Shown piece after piece: positions 26,102 to 44,890 of a stretch of DNA of 49,048 nucleotides. How positions within the stretch are numbered: the stretch's first letter is position 1; every line of letters begins with the position of its first letter. Position numbers and translations under genes: made by a program. This stretch comes from Anaerolineales bacterium (GTDB lineage: Bacteria; Chloroflexota; Anaerolineae; Anaerolineales; Villigracilaceae): NCBI GenBank assembly GCA_919902735.1, contig CAKKRM010000092.1, positions 1-49,048 on the forward strand, given 5' to 3'. The notes beneath the pieces were generated by a model that was not told the origin of the DNA, made no database searches, and saw nothing but the letters and a program-made list of their open reading frames with translations.

Positions 26102-27493
26102 CTACTCTGGGGCTTTTTCCTCTTCACCTTCAGCAGGCGCGGCTTCTTCCTTCGTCTCTTCTTCTTTCAGTTCACTCACAGGCTTGTATTCGCCCATCGC
26201 AATCGACTTGATCATATCCAGCGCCATGCGGGTCATTACACGGCTCGCAGATTCCATGGCAATGGCTTCGCTCAATTGCTTCTGGCCTTTCTTGCCGCCG
26301 CGGACTTTGCTGAAATCCATGCCCTGCATGGCGAGACCGTTGATTGCGTTGTTATATTCGGCATCCAACGCTTCATTATCCAACTGGATTTTTTCCCTGC
26401 GGACAACTTCATCGATCAGCAAACTGCGTTCGAGGCGCTTCTTTGCAACGGGCTTCACTTCATCTTCAATGAATTGCTCGCGTGTGGTACTGCGAACTTT
26501 GAAATAGGTGTCGAGGTCCATACCTTGCTGGCTGAGGCGGTTGGACAAATCCGAAAGCACATGCTCGCCTTCGTGCTCGATGGTGTGCTCGTGATATTTG
26601 ATCGTCGCGCCTTCCTTGATCTTTTCGATCAATTCGACGAAATATTTATCATCGTATTCAGATTGCGAACGTGTTTCCACATCCTTCTTCACGGCTTCCA
26701 TCAGGGCTTCGAGGGTTTCACCAGCCCCGGTCGTCCTGGCGAAATCATCATCAAGGTCTGGCAGGGTCACGCCGCGCACGGTCTTGACGGTGGTTTCGAT
26801 CTCGACGCTTTTGCCTTTCAGTTCTTCCACTTCCCAAGTCTCTGGAAAGTCGTATTTGATGGTTTTGCTCTCGCCAGCCTTCAACCCGAGGAGTTCCTTC
26901 GCGAAACCGTTGTACGGCCATTCCGTGTCGCGGTCTTCACTGCGGACGAAAGTAGCAAAGCCTGTGCGGTTCAATTCGGCGGTTTCAGATTTCACATCCA
27001 CCAAAACGTAATCGCCGATCTCGATGGCGCGTTCCACGTTTTCGGTGGTGGCGTACATCTGGCGCAGTTCTTCGAGAGCCGTATCCACGGCTGCTTGATC
27101 AGGGGCTTGCCATTCATACGGCAGGCGGACGGAGTGATAATCGCCGAGTTCTACTTGCGGGGCAAGCGGCACGCGGAAGGTGAACTTGGGCGGCTCGAGG
27201 CTTTCGATGGATTCGAGTGAGCCAGCCGCGCCGGGGTTCACATCCGCTTCCTTGAGCACGTTGGAATATTCCTGATCGATGAACAGGTCAACGGCCTGCT
27301 CGGTCACTGCGCCTTCGCCATACGTGCGGATGACAACATCATACGGAGCTTTGCCCGGGCGAAACCCGGGGATGTTTCCGCGTGACGCGATTTTCGTCGC
27401 AGCGCGGCGCTTGTAGGTGGTCATTTTGTCTGGTTCCACTTCCACGATCAATTTGACGGAGTGGTCTTCCTGGTATTGTTTTTCGATGTTCAA
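26102..27493 (-). CDS. tig: Trigger factor, ribosome-associated chaperone
   Basis: 463 residues. The N-terminal ribosome-binding domain carries the signature ...NIPGFRPGKAPYDVV (residues about 38-54; the FRK-type GFRPGK motif). A central FKBP-like PPIase domain (about 155-245: IGDYVLVDVKSE, WEVEELKGKSVEIETTVKTVRGVTLPDLDDDF) and a helical C-terminal domain follow. The C-terminus ends in an acidic EEETKEEAAPAEGEEEKAPE stretch. An AAGGAAA SD precedes the ATG. It binds near the ribosome exit tunnel and shields nascent chains. Upstream of clpP on the same strand; tRNA-Leu starts about 105 bases upstream. Confidence 0.96.
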   Translation of the reverse strand: MNIEKQYQEDHSVKLIVEVEPDKMTTYKRRAATKIASRGNIPGFRPGKAPYDVVIRTYGEGAVTEQAVDLFIDQEYSNVLKEADVNPGAAGSLESIESLEPPKFTFRVPLAPQVELGDYHSVRLPYEWQAPDQAAVDTALEELRQMYATTENVERAIEIGDYVLVDVKSETAELNRTGFATFVRSEDRDTEWPYNGFAKELLGLKAGESKTIKYDFPETWEVEELKGKSVEIETTVKTVRGVTLPDLDDDFARTTGAGETLEALMEAVKKDVETRSQSEYDDKYFVELIEKIKEGATIKYHEHTIEHEGEHVLSDLSNRLSQQGMDLDTYFKVRSTTREQFIEDEVKPVAKKRLERSLLIDEVVRREKIQLDNEALDAEYNNAINGLAMQGMDFSKVRGGKKGQKQLSEAIAMESASRVMTRMALDMIKSIAMGEYKPVSELKEEETKEEAAPAEGEEEKAPE

Positions 27494-27598
27494 AGTAATT
27501 TCCTTTTTACGTCATTGCGAGGAGGTGATTTTCCGACGAAGCTACCTTGTTTTACAGGGATTACTGCGCGAAGTGCGCCCGCAATGACGGGGTTGTAG

Positions 27599-27680
27599 TG
27601 AGGATGGTGGGAGTCGAACCCACACGCCTTGCGGCACATGATCCTAAGTCATGCCTGTCTGCCAGTTCCAGCACATCCCC
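27599..27680 (-). tRNA. tRNA-Leu (anticodon UAG)
   Basis: 82 nt without an encoded CCA. The acceptor stem GGGGATG pairs with CATCCTC (one G-U), discriminator A at 27599. The anticodon stem CATGA/TCATG encloses the loop CTTAGGA, so the anticodon is TAG (27644-27646) and reads CUA. The long variable arm (TGCCGCAAGGCGT) and T-arm GTGGG-TTCGACT-CCCAC fit a class II leucine tRNA. The 5' 40 nt (27641-27680) lie inside the 100-bp att repeat, so this half probably came with the integrated element. The gene appears intact and functional. Confidence 0.95.
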
Positions 27681-27740
27681 GGTTTGTGTTTTGGGGTGCA
27701 GCGAGCGGCGAAATTATACCGTAAGGTATGCCGAATTTGT
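27641..27740. repeat. att repeat, tRNA-proximal copy
   Basis: Identical over all 100 bp to 38146-38245. It starts one base past the anticodon loop of the tRNA, covers the tRNA 5' half (27641-27680) and 60 bp upstream including the tRNA's -10 box. The bases directly outside differ (G at 27640 versus T at 38145; G at 27741 versus A at 38246). Confidence 0.95.
27713..27718 (-). promoter_or_regulatory. -10 box of tRNA-Leu promoter, inside the att repeat
   Basis: TATAAT on the minus strand, about 32 bases upstream of the tRNA 5' end. The -35 region falls at the outer boundary of the repeat: after integration the sequence there comes from the element (TTGCCACAAA), while at the other att copy, the presumed original upstream flank, it reads TTTACAAA. 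Confidence 0.6.
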
Positions 27741-27795
27741 GGCAAATGTGGAAAATTACGTCATGTTTGACCATGACAGAAAAGAATAGAAGCGC

Positions 27796-28698
27796 ATGAC
27801 TCGTGAAAAAATTGACGGGCTTGAAACATGGATGACCGCCTTTTTGCGTGACTGTAAAATGCGCGGGTTGTCGGCTTTTACTGTGGAATTTTATCGCGCA
27901 CAACTTCAAATTTTTACTGCCTATTGCAAAGGCGAAAGCGTGACCGAAGTCCTGGACTTGACGCCTGACTTATTGCGCGGCTTTATGCTTGCACTTGAAA
28001 CGAAGGGAAGAAACGCGGGCGGGCGTCATGCGGCTTTTCGTTCTGTGCGTGTCTTCCTGCGATGGTACGAAGCCGAAGCCGAACCCGAAGCCTGGGTGAA
28101 CCCTGTCCGCAAAGTGAAACCGCCAAAGGTGACACACGAAATAATAAAGGGCGTGCCGACCGAAGATATAAAGGCGATGCTTGCGACATGCGGGGATAAC
28201 TTTACGGGTGTGCGTGACCGCGCCTTGTTGCTGTGCTTGCTTGACGCCGGCGCAAGGGCAAGAGAATTTTTAGCGTTGAACCTGGGTGACGTTGACTTTG
28301 TAAGCGGCGCGGTGGACATTCGCAAAGGGAAAGGCGGCAAGAGTCGGACGGTATTTATAGGCAAGCGAAGCCGTAAAGCCTTACGCGCTTATATTCGTTT
28401 GCGAACTGACAACGATTCTGCCTTATGGGTGACAAAGAACGGCGGCCGGCGGCTGGCTGTCCCTTCACTTCGTCAACTGCTTGTAAGGCGTGCCGACCTT
28501 GCCCGCGTGCCTGTTCCATCCCCCCATGACTTCAGGCGAAGTTTTGCGCTTGCACTACTTCGGGCGCATGTGGACATATTCAGTATTCAAAAACTTTTGG
28601 GACATGCCGGGCTTGACGTTCTGCGGCTTTACCTTGCACAAAATACGGATGACATTCGAGAGGCACACGAACGCGCAAGTCCGGCGGATAACCTGTAA
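27796..28698 (+). CDS. Tyrosine recombinase (integrase), first copy
   Basis: 300 residues. N-terminal SAM-like core-binding domain (about 1-105) and a complete catalytic domain with Arg154 (AGARAREF), Lys182 in KGGKSRT, His244 and Arg247 (PHDFRR), His270 (LLGHAG) and the nucleophile Tyr279 nine residues later. XerC/D-like in length, with no separate N-terminal arm-binding domain. It starts 55 bp from the att repeat and points into the element. The ATG overlaps a GCGCATGACTCG motif that recurs near the other att site. It should cut and rejoin at the tRNA-Leu anticodon region or assist the second recombinase. It is different from the recombinase at 37076, not a duplicate. Confidence 0.9.
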   Translation: MTREKIDGLETWMTAFLRDCKMRGLSAFTVEFYRAQLQIFTAYCKGESVTEVLDLTPDLLRGFMLALETKGRNAGGRHAAFRSVRVFLRWYEAEAEPEAWVNPVRKVKPPKVTHEIIKGVPTEDIKAMLATCGDNFTGVRDRALLLCLLDAGARAREFLALNLGDVDFVSGAVDIRKGKGGKSRTVFIGKRSRKALRAYIRLRTDNDSALWVTKNGGRRLAVPSLRQLLVRRADLARVPVPSPHDFRRSFALALLRAHVDIFSIQKLLGHAGLDVLRLYLAQNTDDIREAHERASPADNL

Positions 28699-28780
28699 GA
28701 CTTGCGCGGATCGCATGAGAGAGGGAGTCCTGGGAATAATTTGACATGAATATTTTAAGGCAACCGCACGTCAAATTTAC

Positions 28781-28809
28781 TGGACATCTGTTCTAGTATA
28801 GCGTATAAT
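28781..28809 (+). promoter_or_regulatory. Promoter overlapped by a GGAC-N4-GTTC operator
   Basis: TGGACA (28781-28786), 17-bp spacer, TATAAT (28804-28809). The dyad GGACATCTGTTC (28782-28793, extended CTGGACATCTGTTCTAG) covers the -35 box. It precedes the RHH gene by about 190 bases. Confidence 0.6.
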
Positions 28810-28896
28810 GCAAGATATACAGGGGCAAGAACCACAATTGATATATCTGCTGTTAGCGATAACACAGACTCTTGGAGGAGTACCGCGTAAAAAAAA

Positions 28897-28935
28897 ACTC
28901 TGAAATTAGGACGAATGTTCTAATTCGAGTTTTGG
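28897..28935. promoter_or_regulatory. Second GGAC-N4-GTTC operator within an inverted repeat
   Basis: GGACGAATGTTC at 28909-28920 within ATTAGGACGAATGTTCTAAT. Outer arms AACTC (28896-28900 region) and GAGTT (28927-28931) extend the dyad. It shares GGAC-N4-GTTCTA with the site at 28782. In the untranslated leader of the RHH gene. Confidence 0.5.
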
Positions 28936-28999
28936 AAAATTGCGATTTCCAAGTGTCTGTGTTTTTATTTAACTTTTTTGAAACTTGAAAGGATAACCA

Positions 29000-29191
29000 A
29001 TGACCAAAAAAAGAATACAGAACTCCCCCACAATTGCCATGCGTTTCAATGACGCGGACAAGTCCGCATTACGTCAACTGTCCGCGCGGCTTGGCAAGTC
29101 ACAAACTGAAACCGTGCGCGTCCTGGTACGTGAACGGCTGGCGTCTTACTCACTGGCTGAAAAGTCAAAGACTGCGAGCGTGAAGCAGTAA
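29000..29191 (+). CDS. Small ribbon-helix-helix (CopG-like) DNA-binding protein
   Basis: 63 residues behind a GAAAGGATAACC SD. The pattern TIAMRFNDADKSALRQLSARLGKSQTETVRVLVRE is a ribbon-helix-helix domain: a short strand then two helices, binding DNA as a dimer. Such proteins in plasmids and phages repress their own promoters or control copy number. The long leader upstream (28810-28999) contains an inverted repeat that could be its target. The gene stands ahead of 29243 and the Prim-Pol gene, which it may control. Confidence 0.75.
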   Translation: MTKKRIQNSPTIAMRFNDADKSALRQLSARLGKSQTETVRVLVRERLASYSLAEKSKTASVKQ

Positions 29192-29242
29192 CTTAAATGC
29201 AAAATCCGCCGTGACGCGGACTTTGCGAAGGACAAATAACTA

Positions 29243-29773
29243 ATGGGTAAAAATATTGTAAGTCACAAAAGCAAGAAACGCAAGTATGAAATTCGTGAGG
29301 GTGAATATCCGCTTCGTGTGTTTGGGCGGACGGGGGATATTGTCGGGAAAATTGCAGACCATACGACACATAAAGACGTGTCGGCCAAAACCGCCTTTTT
29401 GAAATACCCCTACCCCGCCATAGCGCACACCATAGAGGCGTTGAAGTACATGCAAGAAATGGGCGTCGTTTATATTGACGTTCTGGACAAGGACAGCGGC
29501 ATACACTACAAAACGACTGTTCAAAAGTATTTTGACGAAGGCGAATATTTTTACGGTGGTGAGAAATGGGGCGAACAATTAAAACTTGCCTTGCCAAACT
29601 TTACACAGACGCGCGATCCTGAATTTATTACAAGCCACACGGACGCCCTGGCTTATTCTGCGACAAGTGACACGAATGACGTAATGCCTTTGAGTTATGT
29701 TAGCCGTGCGCCCGTTGGAGTGACGTACACAAAAGGCGTCAAGCAGCTGGGATTATTCGGGGATGGTGAATGA
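29243..29773 (+). CDS. Element protein of unknown function upstream of Prim-Pol
   Basis: 176 residues, ATG at 29243 with CGAAGGACAA upstream. Starts with a basic segment (KSKKRKYEIREG). No domain recognised; aromatic and charged residues are spread throughout and there is no membrane segment. Its stop overlaps the Prim-Pol start by 4 bases (ATGA), so the two are probably translationally coupled and the product may work in replication. Confidence 0.6.
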   Translation: MGKNIVSHKSKKRKYEIREGEYPLRVFGRTGDIVGKIADHTTHKDVSAKTAFLKYPYPAIAHTIEALKYMQEMGVVYIDVLDKDSGIHYKTTVQKYFDEGEYFYGGEKWGEQLKLALPNFTQTRDPEFITSHTDALAYSATSDTNDVMPLSYVSRAPVGVTYTKGVKQLGLFGDGE

Positions 29774-31503
29774 TGCAACGTGACCCGATAACCGACACAC
29801 GAAAAGCCTTTGAATTGCACGCGTCTATTATGGCGCGTGCAAGCGAACCTTTGACACATTTACAGGAAAGTGCCATAGACCTATACAGGCGCGGCTTTAA
29901 TACCTTTCCCATTCCACACGCAAGCAAAGAACCGTTTGAAGGAACGTCACTTAAGCGGCTTTATAACTCACGTCCGCATTTATGCGGTGACGGCGTTGAA
30001 CCGTGCCGACATGGTGCGGCTGTTGTGAACTTTGCGAGTCTATTCACGGGACGAAAAAACCTTGCTGTTATGTGCGGCAAGACTTCGGATAACTTGCTGG
30101 GCGTTGACTGTGACACACAAGCAGCTTATGAAACCATCGGCAAAGAACTTGACGCGCTAACCTTGCCATATTGGGCTTTTACTTCCCATCGTGGCGGCTG
30201 TTATTTGTTGCGTGTCATTGAAGACGAAGCGGCGAACGTCACGAAGGCAGCAAGTAAATTTGAAGGCGTTGAACTATGGGGCAATTCGCATTATGTTATT
30301 TTGCCGATGTCTATTCACCCATCGGGGACGGTGTACCGCTGGCGTGGTGACACAGAACCTTCATACCATTACGCAACTGCTTATGAAACCTTGCCCGCTG
30401 TCCGTGTGACCGCGTTGACCTGGCTGGGCGTGACTTTGCTGAAGGATGACAAGCCGAAGCTGTTTGAAATGTTTGGGCTGTCGGCTGAATATTCTGTATT
30501 GTCAAAGCGTGACCGTGAAACGCTGGGGAGCGGCGCAAGCAAGGGGCAACGGAATTCACGCTTGAATGCGGCGGCATGGCACATGAAGCAAAAAGGTTTT
30601 GACTATGGTTTTGTTGAATCCGCCATATTGAACGCGGCGGCAAAGTGTGAACCTGTTTATCGCCCGCGTGAAGCGTTGTCTATGCTGAAAAGCATATTCA
30701 CCACAAGCGAACGCAAGCACGGCGCAACCTTCGACCCTACGAACGAACCAGAGGTAAGAATTCAACGGCTGTATGCCTTCGTCAATTCGTATGACTGGAA
30801 GGCAACCTTCGGACGTAAAGCACGAACGCGGCGGCTTGTCTTCTCTGCTTGCGTTGACCGTTCGGCTATTGAAGGTGAAACTTTCAGAGCGGCTGTTCGT
30901 GAACTTGCTGAAACTGTGAACCGTAATTATTCTTATGTCGGTGTGTGTCTTCGTGACCTTGCGAATAAAGGACTCTTGCGGCTTGCTACTTCATGGACTG
31001 AATCGTCAAGCGGTGCGAATGTTTACGCCTTTGGTGACGCTTTCAAGCACTACTGCGAGAAAAATACAGTAACTACCACTTGCAATACTAATGTATTTTT
31101 CTCGCAGTACGAAAAAAACACGAATACAGACGCTTGGAAGGATGTCTTCGGGCTGAAAGGGCTGGGCGTTGTGGCTGTGGAAGTCCTGAAAGCATTACAG
31201 GCAAAGCAGTACAAAAGCATTTATGCCATAGCGAAGGACACAGGCGCGGCTTATAACAGTGTCAAAGATGCGGTGAAACGACTGATAAAACATAATCTTG
31301 CAATTCATAGCGAAGCCGAAGGGCTGTATTATGCCGAACCTGTGACCGAAGCGGCGTTACTTGCATTGTCCGTGAAGCTGCAAACAAACGGACGCGCTGA
31401 AATGCAACGGATCGCGCACGGCATAGACCGCGAAATATTTATAAACCGTAACTTGTCAGAAGCAATGCAACCGTTCAATGACGTTACAGGCGAAAGGCGG
31501 TGA
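29770..31503 (+). CDS. Prim-Pol (archaeo-eukaryotic primase) replication protein
   Basis: 577 residues. Residues about 30-210 are a bifunctional DNA primase/polymerase N-terminal domain: ESAIDLYRRGFNTFPIP, the metal-binding LLGVDCD, TSHRGG, and ELWGNSHYVILPMSIHPSG. Next comes a helical segment like primase C-terminal domains (GQRNSRLNAAAWHMKQKGF), and winged-helix-like parts in the last 200 residues (AIAKDTGAAYNSVKDAVKRLIKHN). It can make primers and perhaps extend them at a plasmid-type origin. Unlike many such proteins there is no P-loop helicase domain, so a host helicase would be needed. Iteron-like repeats start two bases past the stop. Confidence 0.82.
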   Translation: MMQRDPITDTRKAFELHASIMARASEPLTHLQESAIDLYRRGFNTFPIPHASKEPFEGTSLKRLYNSRPHLCGDGVEPCRHGAAVVNFASLFTGRKNLAVMCGKTSDNLLGVDCDTQAAYETIGKELDALTLPYWAFTSHRGGCYLLRVIEDEAANVTKAASKFEGVELWGNSHYVILPMSIHPSGTVYRWRGDTEPSYHYATAYETLPAVRVTALTWLGVTLLKDDKPKLFEMFGLSAEYSVLSKRDRETLGSGASKGQRNSRLNAAAWHMKQKGFDYGFVESAILNAAAKCEPVYRPREALSMLKSIFTTSERKHGATFDPTNEPEVRIQRLYAFVNSYDWKATFGRKARTRRLVFSACVDRSAIEGETFRAAVRELAETVNRNYSYVGVCLRDLANKGLLRLATSWTESSSGANVYAFGDAFKHYCEKNTVTTTCNTNVFFSQYEKNTNTDAWKDVFGLKGLGVVAVEVLKALQAKQYKSIYAIAKDTGAAYNSVKDAVKRLIKHNLAIHSEAEGLYYAEPVTEAALLALSVKLQTNGRAEMQRIAHGIDREIFINRNLSEAMQPFNDVTGERR

Positions 31504-31504
31504 A

Positions 31505-31605
31505 TTTGTTACGGCTCATGGTATCGCAGTCTCACGACTTTCGTAACAAAAAAACACAGTAACAAAGCGTAACAAACAAGCCGACTTGCCCCGTAACAAG
31601 TCGGC
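31505..31605. other. Iteron-like repeats and hairpin, putative replication origin
   Basis: Four direct copies of GTAACAA(A/G) at 31543, 31559, 31569 and 31593, plus one inverted copy (TTTGTTAC, 31505-31512), in 100 bp. A perfect 9-bp hairpin GCCGACTTG/CAAGTCGGC (31580-31588, 31597-31605) includes the last repeat in its loop. The position directly after the primase gene fits an origin; the hairpin could instead be a terminator. Confidence 0.55.
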
Positions 31606-31621
31606 AAAAGGAAAGGTGAAA

Positions 31622-32011
31622 ATGCAGGAAAATTCTGAAAAAGGCATTACTACAAAACAAGCGAAAGCCATAACCGCGCTGTTGTCAGAACGCACGGCAA
31701 AAGACGCGGCAAAGCGGGCGGGGTGTAGTGAACGGACGCTTTATACCTGGCTGGCTGACAAAGACTTTCGCGCGGCGTTGCGATCCGCTGAAGCTGACAT
31801 GTTAGACACGGTGACGCGGCGGCTGTCGGCTGGGCAAACTCTCGCCCTGGACACGCTCGAAAAACTTATACAGTCGGCGCGGCATGAAAGCACGAAGTTA
31901 ACCGCGTGCGTGTCCTGGCTGAATATGTTTATAAAATACCGTGACATGAAGGATATTGACGAACGCTTGACCGCGCTCGAGGAGGCAATAAATAATGGCA
32001 ACAAAAAATAA
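31622..32011 (+). CDS. Helix-turn-helix protein resembling phage terminase small subunits
   Basis: 129 residues from the ATG at 31622, with AAAGGAAAGGTGAAA upstream. The N-terminal pattern TTKQAKAITALLSERTAKDAAKRAGCSERTLYTWLADKDFRAALRSAE, then helices with TVTRRLSAGQTLALDTLEKLI, matches the HTH-oligomerisation layout of phBC6A51/terminase-small-subunit-like proteins. In phages TerS selects DNA for packaging; satellites carry their own TerS to redirect a helper's terminase. No large terminase subunit is present in the element. A transcription factor or replication accessory role is equally possible. Confidence 0.6.
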   Translation: MQENSEKGITTKQAKAITALLSERTAKDAAKRAGCSERTLYTWLADKDFRAALRSAEADMLDTVTRRLSAGQTLALDTLEKLIQSARHESTKLTACVSWLNMFIKYRDMKDIDERLTALEEAINNGNKK

Positions 32012-32198
32012 AAAGCCTGTGAACGTTATACAATTCTCTGCCAGTGTAGCAAGTATAAAAACGCTTGTTGACGGCGGCATACGAATAACGTTTGACATGC
32101 CCGAAGACGCCATAGCGCAAGCGGCGCAACTTATGGCTTGTAAAAAAGACATGATACCTTTGCGCGTTGAAGTCAAAGCGGATCCGGGGACGGTGTGA
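31995..32198 (+). CDS. Small element protein, unknown
   Basis: 67 residues behind a strong GAGGAGGCAATAAATA SD, overlapping the end of the HTH gene by 17 bases. Mixed alpha/beta pattern (NVIQFSASVASIKTLVDGGIRITFDMPEDAIAQAAQLMACKKDMIPLRVEV). No family recognised. The stop is one base before the next ATG. Confidence 0.6.
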   Translation: MATKNKKPVNVIQFSASVASIKTLVDGGIRITFDMPEDAIAQAAQLMACKKDMIPLRVEVKADPGTV

Positions 32199-32199
32199 C

Positions 32200-32481
32200 A
32201 TGGCAAATAAAAACAGACTTGCACAACTTGAAAGCGTGAAGCGTTTTGACCATGCTGGGGACGTTGCCAAATTGCCCGCGACCGTGCGTTCGTTGGATGA
32301 CGTTCTATCGGTGCTTGACTATTCACTTGTGGAAACCCTACCGCTTGAAAATTCAATTCAGCGTGGGCGTTTACTCGTTGCGATTGCGGGCGCGTTTACC
32401 GAAGCCATAAAGACGGGCGAACTGCAAGAGAGAATCGCGGCGCTTGAAAGCGCATTGAAAAGCAGAGAGGCGACGAAATGA
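32200..32481 (+). CDS. Small helical element protein, unknown
   Basis: 93 residues from the ATG at 32200 (SD GGGGACGG); an in-frame ATG at 32167 lies inside the previous gene. Predicted helical, with a C-terminal stretch ELQERIAALESALKSREATK that looks coiled-coil. The stop overlaps the next start (ATGA). Confidence 0.6.
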   Translation: MANKNRLAQLESVKRFDHAGDVAKLPATVRSLDDVLSVLDYSLVETLPLENSIQRGRLLVAIAGAFTEAIKTGELQERIAALESALKSREATK

Positions 32482-33017
32482 ATATAAATGCAATTCAAAA
32501 ACATTATGACAAACTGACAACCCGCGAACGCTTCGCGCTCATTGTCGCGGCTGGGATGCGCGGGGATGAAGCCGACCGCGCGGCGTTACTGCGAACCGCT
32601 CCCCGCAAGACCTGGAGTATTCCCACAACGAACGGACTGGCAGAGGCGTTCAACTTCCTTTCGATGTTTCATGTCATGGATACATTGAGACTTGAAACGA
32701 ATTTTTATTTTTTGTTGTCTATGGGCGATGAAGAAGACGGGATATTTGAAAAGATGGGAATAACGTCTATGGATGCGCTTGAAAATATCGCCCGTGCAAT
32801 TCTCGCAAACTGTGAAGCGTGGCGCGTGGTGTGTTCTGAATACGGCGTTGACCCCGTGAAAATTCTTGACCCGTTGCCTGGCGCGGATTGTTTAGAACTT
32901 TTGGAGTACATGGTAAAGCGGATGTATGAAAGCGACCCGCTCGAATTGTCCGACCTGCAAGAGACCATCGAAGGATACAGGCGGACAATTGAAACGAAAC
33001 GTAAGGAATGGGAATAA
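32478..33017 (+). CDS. Element protein of 179 residues, unknown
   Basis: The ATG overlaps the preceding stop by 4 bases. Largely helical, with a C-terminal charged helix (LSDLQETIEGYRRTIETKRKEWE). The N-terminus (KHYDKLTTRERFALIVAAGMRGDEADRAALLRTAP) resembles short phage-associated helical proteins found next to terminase or HTH genes. No catalytic motif seen. Last substantial gene before the terminator at 33108. Confidence 0.6.
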   Translation: MNINAIQKHYDKLTTRERFALIVAAGMRGDEADRAALLRTAPRKTWSIPTTNGLAEAFNFLSMFHVMDTLRLETNFYFLLSMGDEEDGIFEKMGITSMDALENIARAILANCEAWRVVCSEYGVDPVKILDPLPGADCLELLEYMVKRMYESDPLELSDLQETIEGYRRTIETKRKEWE

Positions 33018-33033
33018 TGCCGGCTGTGTGACA

Positions 33034-33108
33034 ATGGCAAAAAACATAGAAAAGCATAAACTTTCACACGCACTACGCCCGCACGCGCAAGGGGAGACCG
33101 CAAAATAA
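33034..33108 (+). CDS. Possible 24-residue peptide
   Basis: A short basic ORF (MAKNIEKHKLSHALRPHAQG...) ending at the edge of the terminator hairpin. No convincing SD. Reported because it fills the space between the 179-residue gene and the terminator. Confidence 0.2.
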   Translation: MAKNIEKHKLSHALRPHAQGETAK

Positions 33109-33134
33109 AAAGACGCCTATGACGGGCGTCTTTT
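33108..33134. terminator. Bidirectional intrinsic terminator
   Basis: AAAAGACGCC (33108-33117) pairs with GGCGTCTTTT (33125-33134), with A- and T-tracts on both sides, between the plus-strand operon and the minus-strand repressor gene. Confidence 0.85.
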
Positions 33135-33156
33135 GTTGTGGGTGAGCGGCGGCTGT

Positions 33157-33414
33157 TTACTTTTTCTTTTTGGCGGGCGGCGTTTCGTCTTCGATGTACT
33201 CAAACAAGTCACCTGGCTTGACGTTGAAGTATTGACATACGGCATTTATGACATGCACGTCAAAGCGCGTGACTGTGTTATTCGCCCATGCAAAAAGCGT
33301 CTTCGGCGGTATGCCTGTCTCTTGTGAAACTTCGGCAAGGGGAATATTACGCTTTTCTTGTGCGCGTTTTTCTGCTAACAAAACTCCAAAACGGTTATTG
33401 ACTGTCACGTCCAT
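33157..33414 (-). CDS. XRE/Cro-CI-type repressor
   Basis: 85 residues. NRFGVLLAEKRAQEKRNIPLAEVSQETGIPPKTLFAWANNTVTRFDVHVINAVCQYFNVKPGDLFEYIED is a five-helix Cro/CI-like HTH with the usual 'few residues of core, then DLFEY' ending. The tail is basic (PPAKKKK). The only minus-strand gene of the element. Four copies of an ACACTAA-type motif lie in the divergent control region just upstream, so it is likely to repress its own promoter and the rightward one, as in a lysogeny switch. There is no peptidase (LexA/CI cleavage) domain, so induction would need another mechanism. Confidence 0.82.
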   Translation of the reverse strand: MDVTVNNRFGVLLAEKRAQEKRNIPLAEVSQETGIPPKTLFAWANNTVTRFDVHVINAVCQYFNVKPGDLFEYIEDETPPAKKKK

Positions 33415-33430
33415 ATTTTACTCCATGCGT

Positions 33431-33540
33431 AACGTTAGTGTTACTTTTGTTTTGTAGAATTATACTCTAAAGTGCCTTATAAAACACTAAAGTTTTGTAA
33501 GAATTTACTTATTGCCTATATATTACACTAATGTTATAAT
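33431..33540. promoter_or_regulatory. Divergent promoters with four repressor-operator copies
   Basis: Operators with consensus ACwCTAAnGT: 33431-33442 (inverted, AACGTTAGTGTT), 33464-33473 (ACTCTAAAGT), 33483-33494 (AACACTAAAGTT) and 33524-33535 (TACACTAATGTT). Rightward promoter: TTGCCT (33512-33517), 17-bp spacer, TATAAT (33535-33540), overlapped by the fourth site. Leftward -10: TATAAT on the minus strand at 33464-33459, overlapped by the second site. Confidence 0.7.
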
Positions 33541-33702
33541 TCAGGCAGTAAAGTAATTCCGAACCTTACCAACCGAATAACCGTTCACCCCGTAACCCGC
33601 GTGACTTAAAGCGCGGCGATGGTGACACGGTGAGGGAAGCGCGGGGGCAATAGCGCAAAGACTAACAAAAACTAACATATTCAAAACTTGGAGGAAAAGA
33701 CC

Positions 33703-33984
33703 ATGAAACTCATTGTAGACGGCAAGCGGTACGACACTGGCAAAATGCAACAAGTCATTGACGAACAACGGAAGCAAGGACATTCAAACGGCGTTACTTT
33801 GCTGGGCGCGTTCTTGACCAAAGACAAGCGCGTTCTTGTGGTGACTGACAGCGTTTGGGAGTCGGGGCGCAATGACGGGACGTGCGTCGGCACTACGGGA
33901 CACTTTGCGGACGCGGATGAAATCGCGCGGCTGGCTGACAGGTACGGCGGCGAACTCGAAGACCTTGTACCAGAGGGCGAATAG
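33703..33984 (+). CDS. Small element protein, unknown
   Basis: 93 residues from the ATG at 33703 behind TTGGAGGAAAAGACC; a TTG at 33688 in frame overlaps the SD and is rejected. Acidic, with KLIVDGKRYDTGKMQQVIDEQ at the start and a later beta-rich part (KRVLVVTDSVWESG). No family recognised. It is the first gene after the operator-controlled rightward promoter, so it occupies the position a Cro or anti-repressor gene would hold, and it is followed by a terminator. Confidence 0.55.
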   Translation: MKLIVDGKRYDTGKMQQVIDEQRKQGHSNGVTLLGAFLTKDKRVLVVTDSVWESGRNDGTCVGTTGHFADADEIARLADRYGGELEDLVPEGE

Positions 33985-33993
33985 CACAAACAA

Positions 33994-34026
33994 AAAGCCG
34001 GCACGGTTATTCACTGTGCCGGCTTT
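33994..34026 (+). terminator. Intrinsic terminator
   Basis: AAAGCCGGCAC (33994-34004) pairs perfectly with GTGCCGGCTTT (34016-34026), preceded by AA and followed by only a short T-run. It separates the first rightward gene from the long operon at 34090-36587. Confidence 0.75.
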
Positions 34027-34089
34027 ACCGTGAACTCTGCGAAGAAAAACACGGTAAGTCAATTTTACCAAACAAAGGACGGTGACTCG

Positions 34090-34380
34090 ATGACAGTTTA
34101 TCTAATTCACTTCCAAACGAACCTACACCATGCGCGGCATTATGTCGGCTATGCTGACAAAGTAAATAAACGCCTGGCACATCACAGGGACGGGAGCGGG
34201 GCGCGTCTTCTGGCGGTGTGCAATGAGCGCGGCATTGAATACGACATAGCGCGGACATGGGAAGGGCAGGGGCGTAACTTTGAACGCAAGCTAAAGAACT
34301 GCAAGAACGCGGCGCGATATTGTCCAGTGTGCAAGCAGGGACCCGCACGCGAATATAAGCCAAAGGACAAAGAACCATGA
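34090..34380 (+). CDS. GIY-YIG superfamily nuclease-like protein
   Basis: 96 residues from the ATG at 34090 (SD AAAGGACGGTGA); a GTG at 34030 in frame lies inside the terminator region. TVYLIHF corresponds to the GIY strand and HYVGYADKVNKRLAHHRDG to the YIG strand and following Arg/His; the later FERKLKN holds the Glu expected for metal binding, followed by CPVC. Such single-domain nucleases occur in phages and mobile elements. It starts a chain of genes linked by ATGA overlaps. Confidence 0.7.
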   Translation: MTVYLIHFQTNLHHARHYVGYADKVNKRLAHHRDGSGARLLAVCNERGIEYDIARTWEGQGRNFERKLKNCKNAARYCPVCKQGPAREYKPKDKEP

Positions 34381-34634
34381 CAGACATAAACGTAATTCAA
34401 ACAAGTGACGGGTACGCAAAAATTAGACTTCACGACTTTGAAGCTCTGCAAGCCGAAGCCGAACGCCTGCGCGAAGAAGTCCGCGAATTGAAGCGCGAAA
34501 AGTTACGAATATTCAAGGCGTTTTGTTGCGCCGATTCTACGTTGCGGATTCACTACGCTGTTGACATGCGAAGCGAAGCCGACCAACAAGAAGCGAAAAT
34601 TTTACGGGCGTATATAGCGGGGGATGCGCCATGA
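34377..34634 (+). CDS. Small coiled-coil protein, unknown
   Basis: 85 residues, overlapping the genes on both sides by 4 bases. DFEALQAEAERLREEVRELKREKLRIFKAF is a clear amphipathic coiled coil in the middle. No known family. Confidence 0.6.
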   Translation: MTDINVIQTSDGYAKIRLHDFEALQAEAERLREEVRELKREKLRIFKAFCCADSTLRIHYAVDMRSEADQQEAKILRAYIAGDAP

Positions 34635-34972
34635 AGAAAAGAACTTTCGTCATGTTTGTTTTACTCGCCCTGGCTGTCGGCTTATACATGACTGCGAATG
34701 CGAAAGGGGACAGGATCGAGCCGACACAAACGGCGCAAGCGTCACGGACTTCAACAAGCACGGCGAAGCCTGACACATGCAAAGTTTATACAGGCGTTGA
34801 CGGCGGGACGGTGAACCTGCGAAGCTGTGCGGGGACTTCCTGCGGCGTCATGCAAGTATTGACTGAAGGCGAAAGCCTGACAATTCTCACGGCTGGCTTA
34901 TGGGTGAACGTCACAACTGAAAGCGGCGTCACTGGCTGGCTGTATTCAAAATACTGTGAGGTGAAAAGATGA
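34631..34972 (+). CDS. Exported SH3b-domain protein
   Basis: 113 residues. A signal peptide or anchor (KKRTFVMFVLLALAVGLYMTANA) is followed by a Thr/Ser linker and a bacterial SH3 domain (GGTVNLRSCAGTSCGVMQVLTEGESLTILTAGLWVNVTTESGVTGWLYSKYC, given here by its ends GGTVNLRSC and GWLYSKYC). SH3b domains bind peptidoglycan or surface polymer. The presence of an exported protein in a small integrated element suggests an envelope function, for example exclusion or attachment. Overlaps neighbours by ATGA on both sides. Confidence 0.7.
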   Translation: MKKRTFVMFVLLALAVGLYMTANAKGDRIEPTQTAQASRTSTSTAKPDTCKVYTGVDGGTVNLRSCAGTSCGVMQVLTEGESLTILTAGLWVNVTTESGVTGWLYSKYCEVKR

Positions 34973-35139
34973 AAAACTTTTTTACGCAACGTCCGCGAAC
35001 GGCGGCAATGGTTGTGATGGTGTTAGTTTTGTTTATCCGTTTAGTTTTGGTGGTGGTATCTAATCCGCAGTTGTTAGATGGATTACCACGCGGCGGCGGT
35101 GCGTGCGTTTGGCAAGATGGAATCCGTTATTGTAGATAA
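34969..35139 (+). CDS. Small single-pass membrane protein
   Basis: 56 residues; the ATG overlaps the SH3b stop (ATGA). One membrane helix (about residues 13-30, MVVMVLVLFIRLVLVVV) and a short tail with Cys residues (GGGACVWQDGIRYCR). No family recognised. Its overlapping start and lack of internal stops support it as a real gene despite its size. Confidence 0.6.
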   Translation: MKNFFTQRPRTAAMVVMVLVLFIRLVLVVVSNPQLLDGLPRGGGACVWQDGIRYCR

Positions 35140-35161
35140 AAACAAAAAGGAAAAATAAACC

Positions 35162-36031
35162 ATGTTAAAAAAAATAGGTATTCTACTTGTGACCCTCCTG
35201 GGCGGCGCGTTGCTTGTGTATAGTGCAACCCGAAGCCTGGACTTTATCGAATTGACCTTACCCGAAGACCGAAAAATTCTTGCTTACTTCGGGCTTGCGG
35301 CTCTTGACGGCGGGCTTGTTGCGTGGCTGTTATCCTACTTGAACGGATCGCGCGGCGGCTGGCAACGTGCAATAAGTATTATTATGGTTATTGTGGACAC
35401 GGGCGGGGCTATTGCAATGTTCACATTCGACACACTGTATAACACTGGCAAGAATGGCATGACGGCGGCAATGATGCCCGAAGAAATAACAAACGCGGTG
35501 CTTGGCTTATCGGGCATTATCGCGCTGAATATCATTGCCACAATTGCCCATCACATAACCGACGTTGACAAACTGCGGGAACAGGCCGAAGAAGAAGCCT
35601 TCGCAAAAGTTGAAGATGCAACCTTGAAACAAATTTCAAAGAACGCCGACACACTCGCGGCGCAACTTGCGCCCGTCATGGCGGCGGACTGGCAAGCACA
35701 AACACAGGCGCGGTATATGTCCTATATTGGCACGGGCAAACTTCCCACCATTGACGCGACCGCGCGGGATGTGACGCCTTCGCAAAATAGCGGCGTGCTT
35801 ATGCCCTTCCTTGCACAAGCACAACCGCAAGAACGCAAGGCGTTTGTCATGCCAAATTTCCACATGCCGAACCTGGGCGCGTTGTGGGCTGGCTTATTCA
35901 AAGCAGAGAATGACGGGCGGACGTTTCAAAGTGTCACGCCTATTGTGACCGAAGTGAAAGCCGAACCCGAAGCGAAGACCGAACCCAAAGCGGACGGCGA
36001 GTCTTTTACCGAAGCCGCGCCGAAGTCATAG
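35162..36031 (+). CDS. Multi-pass membrane protein with long cytoplasmic tail, unknown
   Basis: 289 residues; AAAAAGGAAAAATAAACC precedes the ATG. Four hydrophobic segments in the first 130 residues (GILLVTLLGGALLVYSA; ILAYFGLAALDGGLVAWLL; AISIIMVIVDTGGAIAMF; AVLGLSGIIALNIIATIAHHI), then a charged helical region and a Pro/Glu/Lys-rich C-terminus. Similar layouts occur in uncharacterised phage and plasmid membrane proteins. The stop TAG is embedded in ATAG, where the next ORF appears to begin. Confidence 0.65.
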   Translation: MLKKIGILLVTLLGGALLVYSATRSLDFIELTLPEDRKILAYFGLAALDGGLVAWLLSYLNGSRGGWQRAISIIMVIVDTGGAIAMFTFDTLYNTGKNGMTAAMMPEEITNAVLGLSGIIALNIIATIAHHITDVDKLREQAEEEAFAKVEDATLKQISKNADTLAAQLAPVMAADWQAQTQARYMSYIGTGKLPTIDATARDVTPSQNSGVLMPFLAQAQPQERKAFVMPNFHMPNLGALWAGLFKAENDGRTFQSVTPIVTEVKAEPEAKTEPKADGESFTEAAPKS

Positions 36032-36285
36032 CCGTTCGTACCTGTGCGCGGTGTGGCAATGTTTATGACGGCGCATTACATGGGCGTTACTGTGGGAACT
36101 CTTGCAAGCAAAAAAGTTACCGTGACCGTAAAAAATACGGGAACGCGCAAGCGTCAAAGGAACTTCGGACGTGTGCGCGGTGTGGTGTGCAATTCGCGGG
36201 CGCGTTGCATGGACGTTACCATTCGGGCGCATGTAAGCAAGCTGCATACCGCGAACGCAAAGCGCGAAAGGCGGTGACGGTGTGA
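36028..36285 (+). CDS. Hidden tandem zinc-finger protein without a standard start codon
   Basis: Up to 85 residues. Two homologous halves each read TCARCG...(Y/F)xGALHGRY...(C/S)G...CK: Cys-x2-Cys and a later Cys-x3-Cys in the first, Cys-x2-Cys plus a single Cys and a nearby His in the second. The sequence continues R-E-R-K-A-R-K at the end. The frame is open from 35914 but contains no ATG, GTG or TTG before the first finger. The only codon in the expected place is ATA at 36028, overlapping the upstream stop as ATAG. The stop overlaps the next gene's GTG (GTGA), as expected for a translated operon member. Possible explanations: ATA start, a -1 frameshift from 35162 (T-TTT at 36004-36007), or a point mutation. 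Confidence 0.6.
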   Translation: MAVRTCARCGNVYDGALHGRYCGNSCKQKSYRDRKKYGNAQASKELRTCARCGVQFAGALHGRYHSGACKQAAYRERKARKAVTV

Positions 36286-36587
36286 ATATTCAATTATTCG
36301 GAATGTGCGACTGTGGCAATACGATATGGGACGGCACGCTTTTATGTGACGCCTGCAAAGAACGCAACAAGGCGATTTTGAACATTTACAAAACAGACGA
36401 ATGGACGGCGCGTATTCTCACGGATGAATGCGGCGTTGTCCTGGACTGTGAAGTAACTTTCAAGCCGACTTCGGAATACGCGCGGCGGATAGCACAACGG
36501 GCAAAGCGTTATAAGTCACGTCCGCGCGTTGAATTGCCTGAAGACAAGCAAAGCAATACGGCGCACGAAGTCGGCGCATGGTTGTAA
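36282..36587 (+). CDS. Small zinc-ribbon-like protein
   Basis: 101 residues from a GTG that overlaps the zinc-finger stop by 4 bases, with GAAAGGCGGTGAC upstream. Cys pattern MCDCGN...LCDACK near the N-terminus would form a small zinc ribbon; the rest is mixed with basic stretches (RRIAQRAKRYKSRP). It closes the overlapping operon. Probably nucleic-acid or protein binding; function unknown. Confidence 0.6.
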   Translation: MNIQLFGMCDCGNTIWDGTLLCDACKERNKAILNIYKTDEWTARILTDECGVVLDCEVTFKPTSEYARRIAQRAKRYKSRPRVELPEDKQSNTAHEVGAWL

Positions 36588-36675
36588 TGGGACTCTGTAA
36601 GGCGTCTGTTTTGCGCGAGACGATAAAAGACACGGGGGCGGGGCGTAGCGTTTAACCTGGGGCGTTCTGGAGTCG

Positions 36676-36735
36676 TTTAGGGCGTGTCTAGCAATGGACA
36701 CGCCCTAAATTGTGCCTGTTATAGCTTCCTATAAT
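36676..36735 (+). promoter_or_regulatory. Large hairpin followed by a TATAAT box
   Basis: TTTAGGGCGTGTC (36676-36688) and GACACGCCCTAAA (36697-36709) form a perfect 13-bp stem with an 8-nt loop and no T-tract. TATAAT at 36730-36735 lies in a region with repeated GTTATAG units and precedes the gene at 36786. It may combine termination of the operon with a promoter for the last two genes. Confidence 0.5.
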
Positions 36736-36785
36736 GCCAGTTATAGAGACTTCTAAAGACCAATAACCGAAAGGACAAATAGACA

Positions 36786-37061
36786 GTGAACAAACGAAGA
36801 AAATACAGACAAGGTATTTTAATGGGACGTAACAAACGAACCGCCATTTTAGAAACGACCGTCACGGACAATTGCACAACCTTTGCCATAATGCAAAAAG
36901 GTAAAACCATTGCGACACGTTCAACGTCAAAGACGCAAGACGAAGAAACCGCAATAATGCGACTGTCTAAAGCCGTGTCGGGATTCTCTTACGTTTATGT
37001 TATTCCAGTCCCACAAGAAAAAGATAATGCTATAAAAAGATATTACAAGGTAAACAACTAA
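36786..37061 (+). CDS. Small basic protein upstream of the second recombinase
   Basis: 91 residues from GTG at 36786 (GAAAGGACAAATAGACA upstream), or 79 from an ATG at 36822. Strongly basic N-terminus (NKRRKYRQGILMGRNKR), then two strand-like segments and DEETAIMRLSKAVSGFSYVYVIPVP. No family recognised. It precedes the recombinase by 14 bases, a place often held by a directionality factor (excisionase) gene, but the sequence does not prove that. Confidence 0.5.
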   Translation: MNKRRKYRQGILMGRNKRTAILETTVTDNCTTFAIMQKGKTIATRSTSKTQDEETAIMRLSKAVSGFSYVYVIPVPQEKDNAIKRYYKVNN

Positions 37062-37075
37062 AAGGAAAATAAACC

Positions 37076-38026
37076 ATGAACAAAATAATTTTGAAAAATA
37101 AAGACCTGGCACGACTTGACCAAAACGCGGCGGCTGTTTATTTGACTTCGATGAATAGCAAAGTAGGACGGGTGTCCATGCGGCAAGCGTTGAACGTTTG
37201 CGCGGGCTTGCTTTCAGGCAATGCGGACGCGGCGTCATTCGCCTGGCATGAATTACGCTTTCAGCACGTGACCGCGATCCGTACACGTTTGAACGAAAAG
37301 TATAAACCTGCAAGCGTAAACAAAATGCTTGCAGCTGTGCGCGGCGTTTTGAAGGCAGCTTGGCAATTAGGGCAAATGTCCGCTGAAGACTATTACAAGG
37401 CGGCAAGCGTGAAGGGCGTCAAGAATGACACGTTACCCGCTGGGCGCGAATTGACACAAGGCGAAATAACCGCGCTTATGTCTGCATGTGAACACGATAC
37501 AACGAACGCGGGCGCAAGGGATGCGGCCATTGTAGGGCTTATGTATTCATGTGGTTTACGGCGTGAAGAAGTTGTGACGCTTGACCTGGCTGACTATGAA
37601 AGCGAAAGCGGGCGGCTTGTGGTGCGTGGCAAAGGCAACAAAGAACGCATAGCATGGTTAACAGGCGGCGCGGCGCGGGCTGTCGCTGACTGGCTGGCCG
37701 TGCGTGGTGAGGATACGGGCGCGTTGTTTGTTGCTGTCAATAAGTCGGGACGCATGGCGTCACAAAAGAATATGACGCCGAAGACTATATACAATATGCT
37801 GGCGAAGCGTGCGACCGAAGCGGGCGTGAAGTCGTTTAGTCCGCATGACATGCGCCGAACGTTTGTAAGTGACCTGCTTGACGCGGGCGCGGACATTACA
37901 ACCGTGTCAAAAATGGCGGGACATTCAAGCGTTACCACTACGTCACGCTATGACCGCCGACCCGAAGAAGCCAAAAGAAAAGCGGCGTCTTTGTTGCATG
38001 TGCCTTATGCTGGGCGCGGTGCGTGA
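37076..38026 (+). CDS. Tyrosine recombinase (XerC/D-like), second copy
   Basis: 316 residues, ATG behind AAAGGAAAATAAACC. Core-binding domain about 10-115, catalytic domain with Arg162 (CGLRREE), Lys189 (GKGNKER), His257/Arg260 (SPHDMRRTF), His283 (AGHSSVTTTSRY) and Tyr292. All catalytic residues are present. It differs clearly from the recombinase at 27796. It lies next to the distal att repeat (120 bp away), pointing toward it. Either recombinase may be the integrase; two in one element might act as a pair on a heterodimeric site, like XerC and XerD. Confidence 0.92.
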   Translation: MNKIILKNKDLARLDQNAAAVYLTSMNSKVGRVSMRQALNVCAGLLSGNADAASFAWHELRFQHVTAIRTRLNEKYKPASVNKMLAAVRGVLKAAWQLGQMSAEDYYKAASVKGVKNDTLPAGRELTQGEITALMSACEHDTTNAGARDAAIVGLMYSCGLRREEVVTLDLADYESESGRLVVRGKGNKERIAWLTGGAARAVADWLAVRGEDTGALFVAVNKSGRMASQKNMTPKTIYNMLAKRATEAGVKSFSPHDMRRTFVSDLLDAGADITTVSKMAGHSSVTTTSRYDRRPEEAKRKAASLLHVPYAGRGA

Positions 38027-38064
38027 AATAGGCGCATGACTCGCACAAATTCAATTATGAACAA

Positions 38065-38106
38065 AAAATAAAACGCCTTACCTGTGACGGTGAGGCGTTT
38101 TATTTT
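38065..38106 (+). terminator. Strong bidirectional intrinsic terminator
   Basis: An 18-bp stem (38065-38082 with 38089-38106, one G-U) with a 6-nt loop and A/T-rich ends, 39 bases past the second recombinase and before the att repeat. It would insulate the element from the chromosome. Confidence 0.85.
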
Positions 38107-38145
38107 GCCATATATAGCGGTGTATTCTTTGACGGCGTGGCTGTT

Positions 38146-38245
38146 ATCCTAAGTCATGCCTGTCTGCCAGTTCCAGCACATCCCCGGTTTGTGTTTTGGG
38201 GTGCAGCGAGCGGCGAAATTATACCGTAAGGTATGCCGAATTTGT
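38146..38245. repeat. att repeat, distal copy with orphan tRNA-Leu 5' half
   Basis: Identical to 27641-27740. Bases 38146-38185 are the 5' half of tRNA-Leu on the minus strand without a 3' half, and the -10 box follows. The right flank (38246 on) is presumed to be the original upstream sequence of the tRNA gene. Confidence 0.95.
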
Positions 38246-38587
38246 AAATTTTTGGGCGGGCGTTTTTATGCGTTCACCTTGCGCAGTTAGCCACAGAGAA
38301 CGCAGAGTTTTTGAGTTTTTCTCTCTGTGAACTCTGTGGCGATGCCTTTGCCTGCGTAAGGTGAGTTTTATGAACTCCGGATATAGCGCAAAAGTGTCGG
38401 TAAATTTCTGCAACAACCGTCTAACGCAAAGGCGCAGAGCCGCAAAGCATTAAATTCTTGGCGCTTTCGCGGCTTGGTGTTAAAGCTCCCGACAGTTTTG
38501 CGCCATACTCATGAACTCCCGCCAAAATTGAAGCCATTCAATTCCAGTTATAATAGCGCCTGCTTGCTCAAAAAGGAGAAATTTTAC
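38246..38587. repeat. Intergenic repeats before the peroxiredoxin gene
   Basis: No gene seen. TTCACCTTGCGCAGTTAGCCAC and an inverted partner GTGGCGATG...GCGTAAGGTGAGTT bracket 38273-38369, with AGAACGCAGAG/CTCTGTGAACTCTG arms inside. At 38419-38483 lies a copy of the AACGCAAAGGCGCAGAGCCG / CGGCTTGGTGTTAA inverted repeat. Confidence 0.6.
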
Positions 38588-44000: not shown

Positions 44001-44358
44001 ATGTTTAGCCAACCAATAAGGCAGACATTATCTGTAATAAACACAAAAAATAAGATAACGTTACCGTTAATTGGAATTGTAAATTTGCCAATAGGATTTA
44101 CGAATAAAGAGTGGCCTGCCGTTTAAAAAAATTCCCGCACCAGATTAAATAGCGCTGCATTTTTTTGTTGTTAACAATGCTGCCTATAATAAGTGGCGCG
44201 CATTGTAGCATTATCAAGTAGTGAAGTCAAATCTTATATTTCACAATCAACAATGCGTACTTGCCCTGAAAATCCCGTCAAAATAATTGTTGACTCACCT
44301 TACCGTCCCATGGGAAAATTTGCATAAGGTGAGTCGTTAATTTGCCTTGCAATTAAAA
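44001..44358. other. AT-rich intergenic region
   Basis: No gene seen. Contains an inverted repeat with arms GACTCACCTTA (44292) and TAAGGTGAGTC (44324-44334), a member of the ACTCACCTTACG family. Confidence 0.6.
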
Positions 44359-44395: not shown

Positions 44396-44410
44396 GCGTT
44401 GAATGACCAG

Positions 44411-44802: not shown

Positions 44803-44833
44803 ATGGCAATTTTTATTTTCTGCCTTTGAATTG

Positions 44834-44872: not shown

Positions 44873-44890
44873 GTTTGTGCATCGCTTATA

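Follow-up and report, generated by a model that had tools for sequence, protein, structure and literature searches.

The locus and its relatives

The DNA analyzed here (49,048 nt; hereafter the window) is positions 1 to 49,048 of contig CAKKRM010000092.1 from an Anaerolineales bacterium of the Villigracilaceae (assembly GCA_919902735.1), in which a 10.5-kb region lies between a tRNA-Leu(TAG) gene and a gene for a bcp-like peroxiredoxin. The region is bounded by an exact 100-bp direct repeat that corresponds to nt 1–40 of the tRNA gene plus 60 bp of upstream DNA and that matched nowhere in the host assembly beyond these two copies (E ≤ 0.001). The tRNA gene is on the minus strand with its anticodon TAG starting at nt 35, and the repeat ends one base past the 7-nt anticodon loop (nt 33–39, as counted by eye from where the anticodon lies). 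In the assembly, listed as 96% complete, the gene occurs once, full-identity matches being confined to the intact gene and an orphan 40-nt 5′ half; the next-best match (80% over 65 nt) is probably another tRNA gene. This is the layout of a tRNA-targeting element, with an intact tRNA at one end, a tRNA fragment oriented the same way at the other and a tyrosine integrase gene (int1) inside, the element lying on the 5′ side of the tRNA and the 5′ fragment being displaced to the far end.

A search for trigger factor, the gene on the other side of the tRNA, gave matches in 58 of 61 genomes (that of the window among them); tRNA-Leu adjoined it in all 30 loci scanned for tRNAs (own and 29 relatives). 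The far side of tRNA-Leu was retrieved for 32 genus members, of which 20 had an empty site, with bcp within a few hundred bases of tRNA-Leu (a partial bcp match in G029). In G016, the whole right flank (bcp, pqq1, pqq2 and w678, the 678-aa gene) followed tRNA-Leu in the order of the window. An int1 relative was present on the far side in two members (79% identical in G033; in G035, where the contig ends, 44% over 48 aa), eight had other genes beside tRNA-Leu, including G009 and G012 with weak recombinase matches (26–28%) 6–12 kb away, and in the last two the contig ended too early. The empty sites in relatives indicate that the 10.5-kb region is an insertion between tRNA-Leu and bcp.

The same tRNA was found filled elsewhere. 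In G077 it was occupied by an 8.5-kb element sharing 86% identity in int1 and 82% in a second recombinase, int2, with bcp beyond, and in G033 by an element whose ends are on two contigs, the second carrying int2, the orphan 5′ half, bcp, pqq1 and pqq2. Loci L126 and L128, which come from G307 and G502 and represent two additional genera of the family, were filled at the tRNA-Leu beside trigger factor. A preliminary description of this DNA had proposed a 10.5-kb integrative element replacing the tRNA-Leu 5′ half, with a repeat composed as given above, and had named as checks empty sites in related genomes and the same gene order at tRNA-Leu in other Anaerolineae, with ordinary core chromosome as the refuting case; the exact repeat, the 20 empty sites among 32, these four filled sites and the recurrence of the gene order at other tRNA genes all bear this out. 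As a separate observation, a match to the tRNA-Leu 3′ half (87% over 45 columns) was seen in L052 (G002) just before the full tRNA-Leu, ending at the boundary of the window repeat; it is possibly the scar of a lost 3′-side element.

Attachment sites and promoter carriage

Relatives of int1 were found in 29 of 57 genus genomes (E ≤ 1e-20) and, using a profile, in 64 of 396 class genomes (E ≤ 1e-50), own genome included in both counts. In eight elements both ends are known, five at Leu-TAG, two at Arg-TCG and one at Met-CAT, and all eight lie on the 5′ side of the tRNA. Expressed as bp upstream plus tRNA nt, the repeats measured 60+40 in the window, 39+40 in G077, 80+39 in L126, 77+40 in L128 and 56+40 in G033 at Leu-TAG, 30+38 in G016 and 55+39 in G075 at Arg-TCG, and 51+39 in G017 at Met-CAT. 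All eight end at tRNA nt 38–40, i.e. 0–2 bases past the 3′ edge of the 7-nt anticodon loop (anticodon starting at nt 35, 34 and 33 in Leu-TAG, Arg-TCG and Met-CAT, respectively), which is consistent with a crossover at the loop, the position reported for tyrosine integrases (PMC8371274). Six of the eight repeats are exact, the fast-changing spacer included, the other two being G033 (two mismatches) and G075 (94.7% identical); recent same-species origin or conversion between copies would each suffice to produce exact repeats. An empty Met-CAT site is supported for G017, since 25 of 30 loci had tRNA-Met next to the gene that flanks the G017 element; for Arg-TCG, no tRNA was found in any of 30 loci around the G016 right-flank gene.

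Two other arrangements were seen. In L133 (9814–17178; the isolate Bellilinea caldifistulae GOMI-1), a related int1 adjoins an orphan tRNA-Leu 5′ half (46 bp), with the intact tRNA-Leu at the opposite end, reversing the layout seen in the window. In the int1-family elements L132, L137, L148 and L175, the repeat spans almost the whole tRNA gene.

The preliminary description had also argued that the element side must supply the tRNA 5′ half, and this can be refined, as a −10-like promoter box is supplied too. Such a box lies inside all eight repeats, TATAAT in seven and TACTAT in G017 (that of G033 being taken from the printed alignment), and the repeats of L126 and G017 also include a TTGAC-type −35 element 23 bp before it. 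TATAAT occurred within 60 nt upstream of tRNA-Leu in 29 of 29 relatives, two of which (G033 and G035) are filled sites. The G077 repeat starts at TATAAT, and just upstream of it, the element-side DNA contains 36 nt sharing 97% identity with the native tRNA-Leu upstream region of G001, another species. This segment holds TTGACG (−35) 17 bp from TATAAT, and the displaced host copy is without TTGAC at that spacing. The simplest reading is that the G077 element imported a tRNA promoter from another lineage; as the matching segment is short, this is suggestive.

Recombinases and side of insertion

The best-scoring models for int1 and int2 were XerA, XerC and XerD, all below curated cut-offs, and the best solved structures for the int1 profile were XerC-like, XerA and XerD proteins. 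The active-site residues of int1 were conserved in the family alignment. Pfam matches in int1 were limited to an N-terminal SAM-like and a catalytic domain. In a published survey (PMC8138268), recombinases of mobile elements mostly have an extra arm-binding domain (27 phages with the simple form vs 410 with the domain); set against these counts, int1 with its two-domain make-up looks like an uncommon type of tRNA integrase.

Across six elements, int2 was 68–86% identical regardless of the target tRNA, and int1 of Leu-type elements shared 48–53% identity with that of Arg/Met-type elements. The int1 and int2 trees of these six disagreed in the pattern expected from exchange of an int1 module between backbones. 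Such exchange is not claimed here, as the approximately unbiased test kept concordance for int2 (p 0.24) and barely rejected it for int1 (p 0.0485). The int1 alignment recovered 27 related loci in viral_contigs (IMG/VR); a single-sequence scan of the same set with int2 gave no relative. Counterparts of the 12-bp repeat that overlaps the int1 start and follows the int2 stop in the window (Table 1) were seen in G077 (12 bp) and L128 (13 bp) and, imperfectly and by eye, in L126; none was found in G016, G017 or G075. In L101 (8008–8967; G075), a second recombinase is fused behind a homologue of the 179-aa protein of the window.

Among the 58 genome_contigs loci recovered with the int1 alignment, int1 was located 5′ of a tRNA in 18 and 3′ of one in 22, with no tRNA close by in the other 18, two of which (L133 and L164) had a tRNA at the far end. 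An int1 tree was built from 43 of these loci (L148 being dropped later as too short), 5 of the 27 viral loci, 7 further genome loci and the window, giving 55 rows of which 51 were labelled by side; the 15 excluded loci had no tRNA close by, were partial or were distant. On this quick tree, unrooted and with Shimodaira–Hasegawa-like approximate likelihood ratio support only, insertion side changed at least six times (five if L133 is coded by direction), compared with a mean of 16.0 for shuffled labels, and the starred branches force at least three changes. The tree being unrooted, it does not tell the ancestral side.

Both sides were seen at one tRNA-Met. The G017 element lies 5′ of tRNA-Met next to a GGDEF-type gene (named by eye), and in G018, G028 and G030 an int1 relative is located 3′ of the equivalent tRNA-Met, which adjoins that gene as well; no attachment (att) repeat was found for these three 3′-side copies, which are presumed to be elements. 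Separately, on contig C66 of G073 (L110 and L120), tRNA-Leu(TAA) is flanked on both sides, with an int1-family gene on the 5′ side and, on the usual 3′ side, a stretch of about 13 kb marked by a perfect repeat of 120 bp that runs from tRNA nt 34 to 68 bp downstream of the gene. A tentative proposal, to which we would give somewhat less than even odds, is that Xer-type integrases of Anaerolineae have repeatedly switched tRNA side, even at the same tRNA-Met, that promoter-side members carry the 5′ half and promoter in their attachment module, and that insertion puts a single-copy tRNA under an element-borne promoter in place of its own and can carry such promoters from one species to another.

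Gene content of the element

The features of the locus are given in Table 1.

Table 1. Features of the tRNA-Leu(TAG) locus, with coordinates in the window (aa, amino acids; HTH, helix-turn-helix; ORF, open reading frame; pLDDT, predicted local distance difference test).
Feature	Coordinates	Strand	Remarks
Trigger factor (host flank)	26102–27493	-	Adjoins tRNA-Leu in all 30 loci scanned
Intact tRNA-Leu(TAG)	27598–27680	-	3′ half outside the repeat (27598–27640), 5′ half in tRNA-side repeat
tRNA-side 100-bp repeat copy (att site)	27641–27740	.	tRNA nt 40 to 1 and the 60 bp upstream
TATAAT, likely −10 box of tRNA promoter	27713–27718	-	38–33 bp upstream of tRNA, within repeat
12-bp repeat GCGCATGACTCG	27792–27803	+	Overlaps int1 start; may be a regulatory or accessory site
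int1, Xer-like simple tyrosine recombinase	27796–28698	+	Intact 300-aa ORF; reads away from tRNA
Small ribbon-helix-helix-like protein	29000–29191	+	Below Pfam cut-off; candidate excision factor or regulator
176-aa conserved protein	29243–29773	+	Low-confidence tail ending QLGLF
577-aa Prim-Pol	29770–31503	+	C-terminal winged-helix match
TerS-like HTH protein	31586–32011	+	phrog_2538, 5e-10
67-aa protein	31995–32198	+	Conserved after TerS in L126 and G017
104-aa conserved protein	32167–32481	+
179-aa protein	32478–33017	+	G075 homologue fused to tyrosine recombinase
Cro/CI-type repressor (HTH_26)	33157–33414	-	Opposite strand
98-aa ORF	33688–33984	+	No family
GIY-YIG-like protein	34030–34380	+	Below Pfam cut-off; conserved in several relatives
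85-aa ORF	34377–34634	+	Coiled-coil-type matches only
SH3-domain protein	34631–34972	+	Probable N-terminal signal or anchor (by eye)
Membrane protein	35162–36031	+	Four N-terminal helices and long helical tail (low-confidence model, mean pLDDT 46.7)
101-aa protein	36282–36587	+	Partial relative in L128
91-aa protein	36786–37061	+	Conserved upstream of int2 in G017 and L126
int2, second Xer-like tyrosine recombinase	37076–38026	+	Conserved in six elements (see text)
Second copy of GCGCATGACTCG	38032–38043	+	Directly after int2 stop
Inverted repeat with T-rich end, terminator-like	38065–38106	.	After int2
Distal repeat copy	38146–38245	.	Orphan tRNA 5′ half and its upstream DNA
bcp-like peroxiredoxin (host flank)	38474–39049	+	Named by eye; adjoins tRNA at empty sites in relatives

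When 18 ORFs of the window were scanned with Pfam and PHROGs (E ≤ 0.1), none matched a relaxase or conjugation family, nor was there a credible match to capsid, portal, tail or holin genes. The two recombinases gave chance-level matches to a tail chaperone family (0.099) and a portal family (0.034), and the one lysis-class match (phrog_1794, 2e-4) was the SH3 protein. Neither a capsid, a tail nor a relaxase family was found among the scanned proteins of the window and the other family elements. The gene set listed in the preliminary description (two tyrosine recombinases, a Prim-Pol, a TerS-like HTH protein and a divergent Cro/CI-type repressor, with neither virion nor conjugation genes) was recovered in full; of its "envelope operon", the adjacency of the SH3 and membrane-protein genes stood, conserved as a pair, and the envelope label is a guess attached to no known function.

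The order int1, opposite-strand repressor, int2 was shared by six single-contig elements (the window, G077, L126, L128, G016 and G017), and the SH3 and membrane proteins were common to all of these except G077. The other single-contig 5′-side elements measured 6.0–10.8 kb. Replication genes varied, with Prim-Pol in the window, L126 and G017, a D5-type helicase and a primase in G075, a D5-type primase in L133, a primase and a helicase in L132, and a weak primase match only in L128; none was recognized among the corresponding genes scanned in G016 and G077. The protein before the replication gene ended in Q[LM]xLF in five of the eight ends read (window, L126, G016, G017 and G073; not L128, L132 and G009), a tail, QLGLF in the window, that resembles clamp-binding peptides. 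Of 57 genus genomes, two had a Prim-Pol relative (E ≤ 0.001), one of them being that of the window; no relative was found in a single-sequence scan of viral_contigs, and no solved structure matched at E ≤ 1. In fold searches with the 176-aa protein, nothing reached E ≤ 0.001, the closest being a fusellovirus nuclease at 7e-3, and no convincing defence-gene match was found among ten proteins (best PADLOC values 8e-5 for the TerS-like and 1e-4 for the GIY-YIG-like protein).

Genes for TerS-like proteins were found in the window, G017, L126, L133 and G033, and a TerL gene in G077 (phrog_9, 2e-38). In four other genomes, TerS relatives were located on contigs with weak int1-like genes (26–34%) and tRNA-Arg, -Pro or -Gly genes. 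Outside the element, two features of the window were recorded: a 678-aa host protein (41745–43781) built of internal near-repeats, and a drop in guanine-plus-cytosine (GC) content to 0.40 at 44001–45000, compared with 0.55 and 0.52 in the adjoining kilobases.

Proposed mechanism and alternatives

Taken together, the region is read as an integrated, phage-satellite-like mobile element inserted on the 5′ side of tRNA-Leu(TAG) by int1 recombination at the anticodon loop, with a probability of about 0.72. This reading builds on what can be taken directly from the sequences, namely the repeat, the empty sites, the other filled copies, the family-wide att geometry and the promoter box in every repeat. 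Most likely, int1 acts as the catalyst and the loop as the crossover, placing the insertion on the promoter side of the gene. Because the attachment site brings the tRNA 5′ half and a −10 box, the single-copy tRNA would be rebuilt with element-supplied upstream DNA and may be transcribed from the carried promoter, the original 5′ half and promoter remaining as an orphan at the far end. Excision, possibly helped by the ribbon-helix-helix-like protein, would restore the original gene. The element would replicate through its Prim-Pol module and the host replisome and be packaged by a helper phage, aided by the TerS-like protein; the substrate of int2 is probably the element itself, with multimer resolution as one example, which is a guess. 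Given the TerS-like genes of several members and the TerL gene of one, phage-satellite-like appears to be the best functional label.

Several points weigh against this reading. Neither a circular form nor excision nor a helper phage was seen. The TerS-like HTH resembles that of transposases (Pfam HTH_Tnp_1_2, 27.9 bits, exactly the family cut-off), and no terminase family was found among the scanned proteins of G016, L128, G075 and L132 (part of their ORFs). Scans of viral_contigs with the TerS-like protein and the G077 TerL gave no relative and that TerL occurred in 1 of 152 family genomes, so that no packaging partner is identified. The role assigned to int2 is itself conjectural.

An alternative is an integrative plasmid-like element that replicates as a circle through its replication module, that spreads by transformation, vesicles or mobilization and not through phage packaging, and whose "TerS" is a DNA-binding regulator. 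Replication-type proteins in the window, L126, G017, G075, L132 and L133 (with the weak primase match in L128 and none recognized in the counterparts scanned in G016 and G077), the restriction of TerS-like genes to some members and of TerL to one, and the transposase-type Pfam match would all agree with this. However, the 18 ORFs of the window matched no family of relaxase or conjugation genes, and the TerL of G077 together with the opposite-strand Cro/CI-type repressor in all six single-contig int2 elements fit a phage link better, leaving this alternative unlikely, if well short of negligible.

A prophage that decayed to the loss of its virion genes would explain the terminase-like genes, the repressor, the integrase and the int1 relatives in 27 IMG/VR loci, but is improbable, since independent decay would not yield the int1, repressor, int2 order that G077, L126, L128, G016 and G017 share with the window, four of them with the SH3 and membrane genes as well, at three tRNA genes. 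Local duplication of the repeat around ordinary core chromosome, to which the similar GC content of element and surroundings might point, is refuted by the empty site seen in 20 of the 32 genus members and further contradicted by the same genes at other tRNAs and the matching att boundaries in eight elements.

Comparison with known systems

An early bacterial case of a 5′ fragment is reportedly that of Zhao and Williams in 2002. Islander counts 3919 islands, 159 of them with the 5′ tDNA fragment displaced (PMC4383910), 1 of 39 thaumarchaeal tRNA-targeting elements lies on the 5′ side (PMC6563490) and pTN3-like elements are a further 5′-side case (PMC5495485; PMC8371274). The present elements resemble the Islander class in their tRNA target, tyrosine integrase and island between an intact tRNA and an orphan 5′ fragment (PMC4383910), but here one family uses three targets (Leu-TAG, Arg-TCG and Met-CAT), and all eight repeats include a −10-like box. 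With pTN3-type archaeal elements they share attachment in a tRNA-Leu 5′ half and a rebuilt tRNA parted from its original promoter (PMC5495485; PMC8371274). In contrast to the pTN3 integrase gene, which is described as disrupted by integration, with 41 bp shared by attP and attB, int1 is an intact 300-aa ORF and the repeats, 68–119 bp long, enclose a −10-like box.

Phage-inducible chromosomal islands (PICIs; PMC6092414) likewise have an integrase, a replication module, a master repressor, sometimes terS, and no structural genes, but differ from the present elements, which have a recombinase at each end, an Xer-like int1 co-directional with the replication genes, the reversed tRNA side and a gene order departing from the conserved one given there; PICIs measure about 12–15 kb, compared with 10.5 kb in the window and 6.0–10.8 kb in the other single-contig elements. 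The minimalist satellites termed PICMI (phage-inducible chromosomal minimalist islands; PMC10803314) are similar in their reduced gene content without capsid-remodelling genes, and come from Vibrionaceae. Mycobacteriophages with tRNA-dependent lysogeny also integrate at a tRNA gene in a way that needs compensation by element DNA, but they carry a whole tRNA gene and the target is not rebuilt (PMC10865867), whereas in the present family a 5′ half carried on the element serves to rebuild the tRNA. Tycheposons are tRNA-linked elements with tyrosine recombinases too, but are described in PMC10872708 as cargo-carrying and 4–200 kb in size. Among the top-ranked matches of a literature search, no such satellite or integrative elements were described for Chloroflexota or Anaerolineae.

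Islands on the 5′ side were already known, if rare; what appears new here is the Xer-like integrase family, the promoter carriage and the side switching. The findings point to satellite-like elements in Chloroflexota. Promoter-side integration at tRNA genes is rare and should sever the gene from its promoter, and this family offers a way in which such insertion may be tolerated, the promoter box travelling with the half gene. With one integrase family on both sides of several tRNAs, at filled and empty sites, it provides a natural series for testing how the side of insertion changes.

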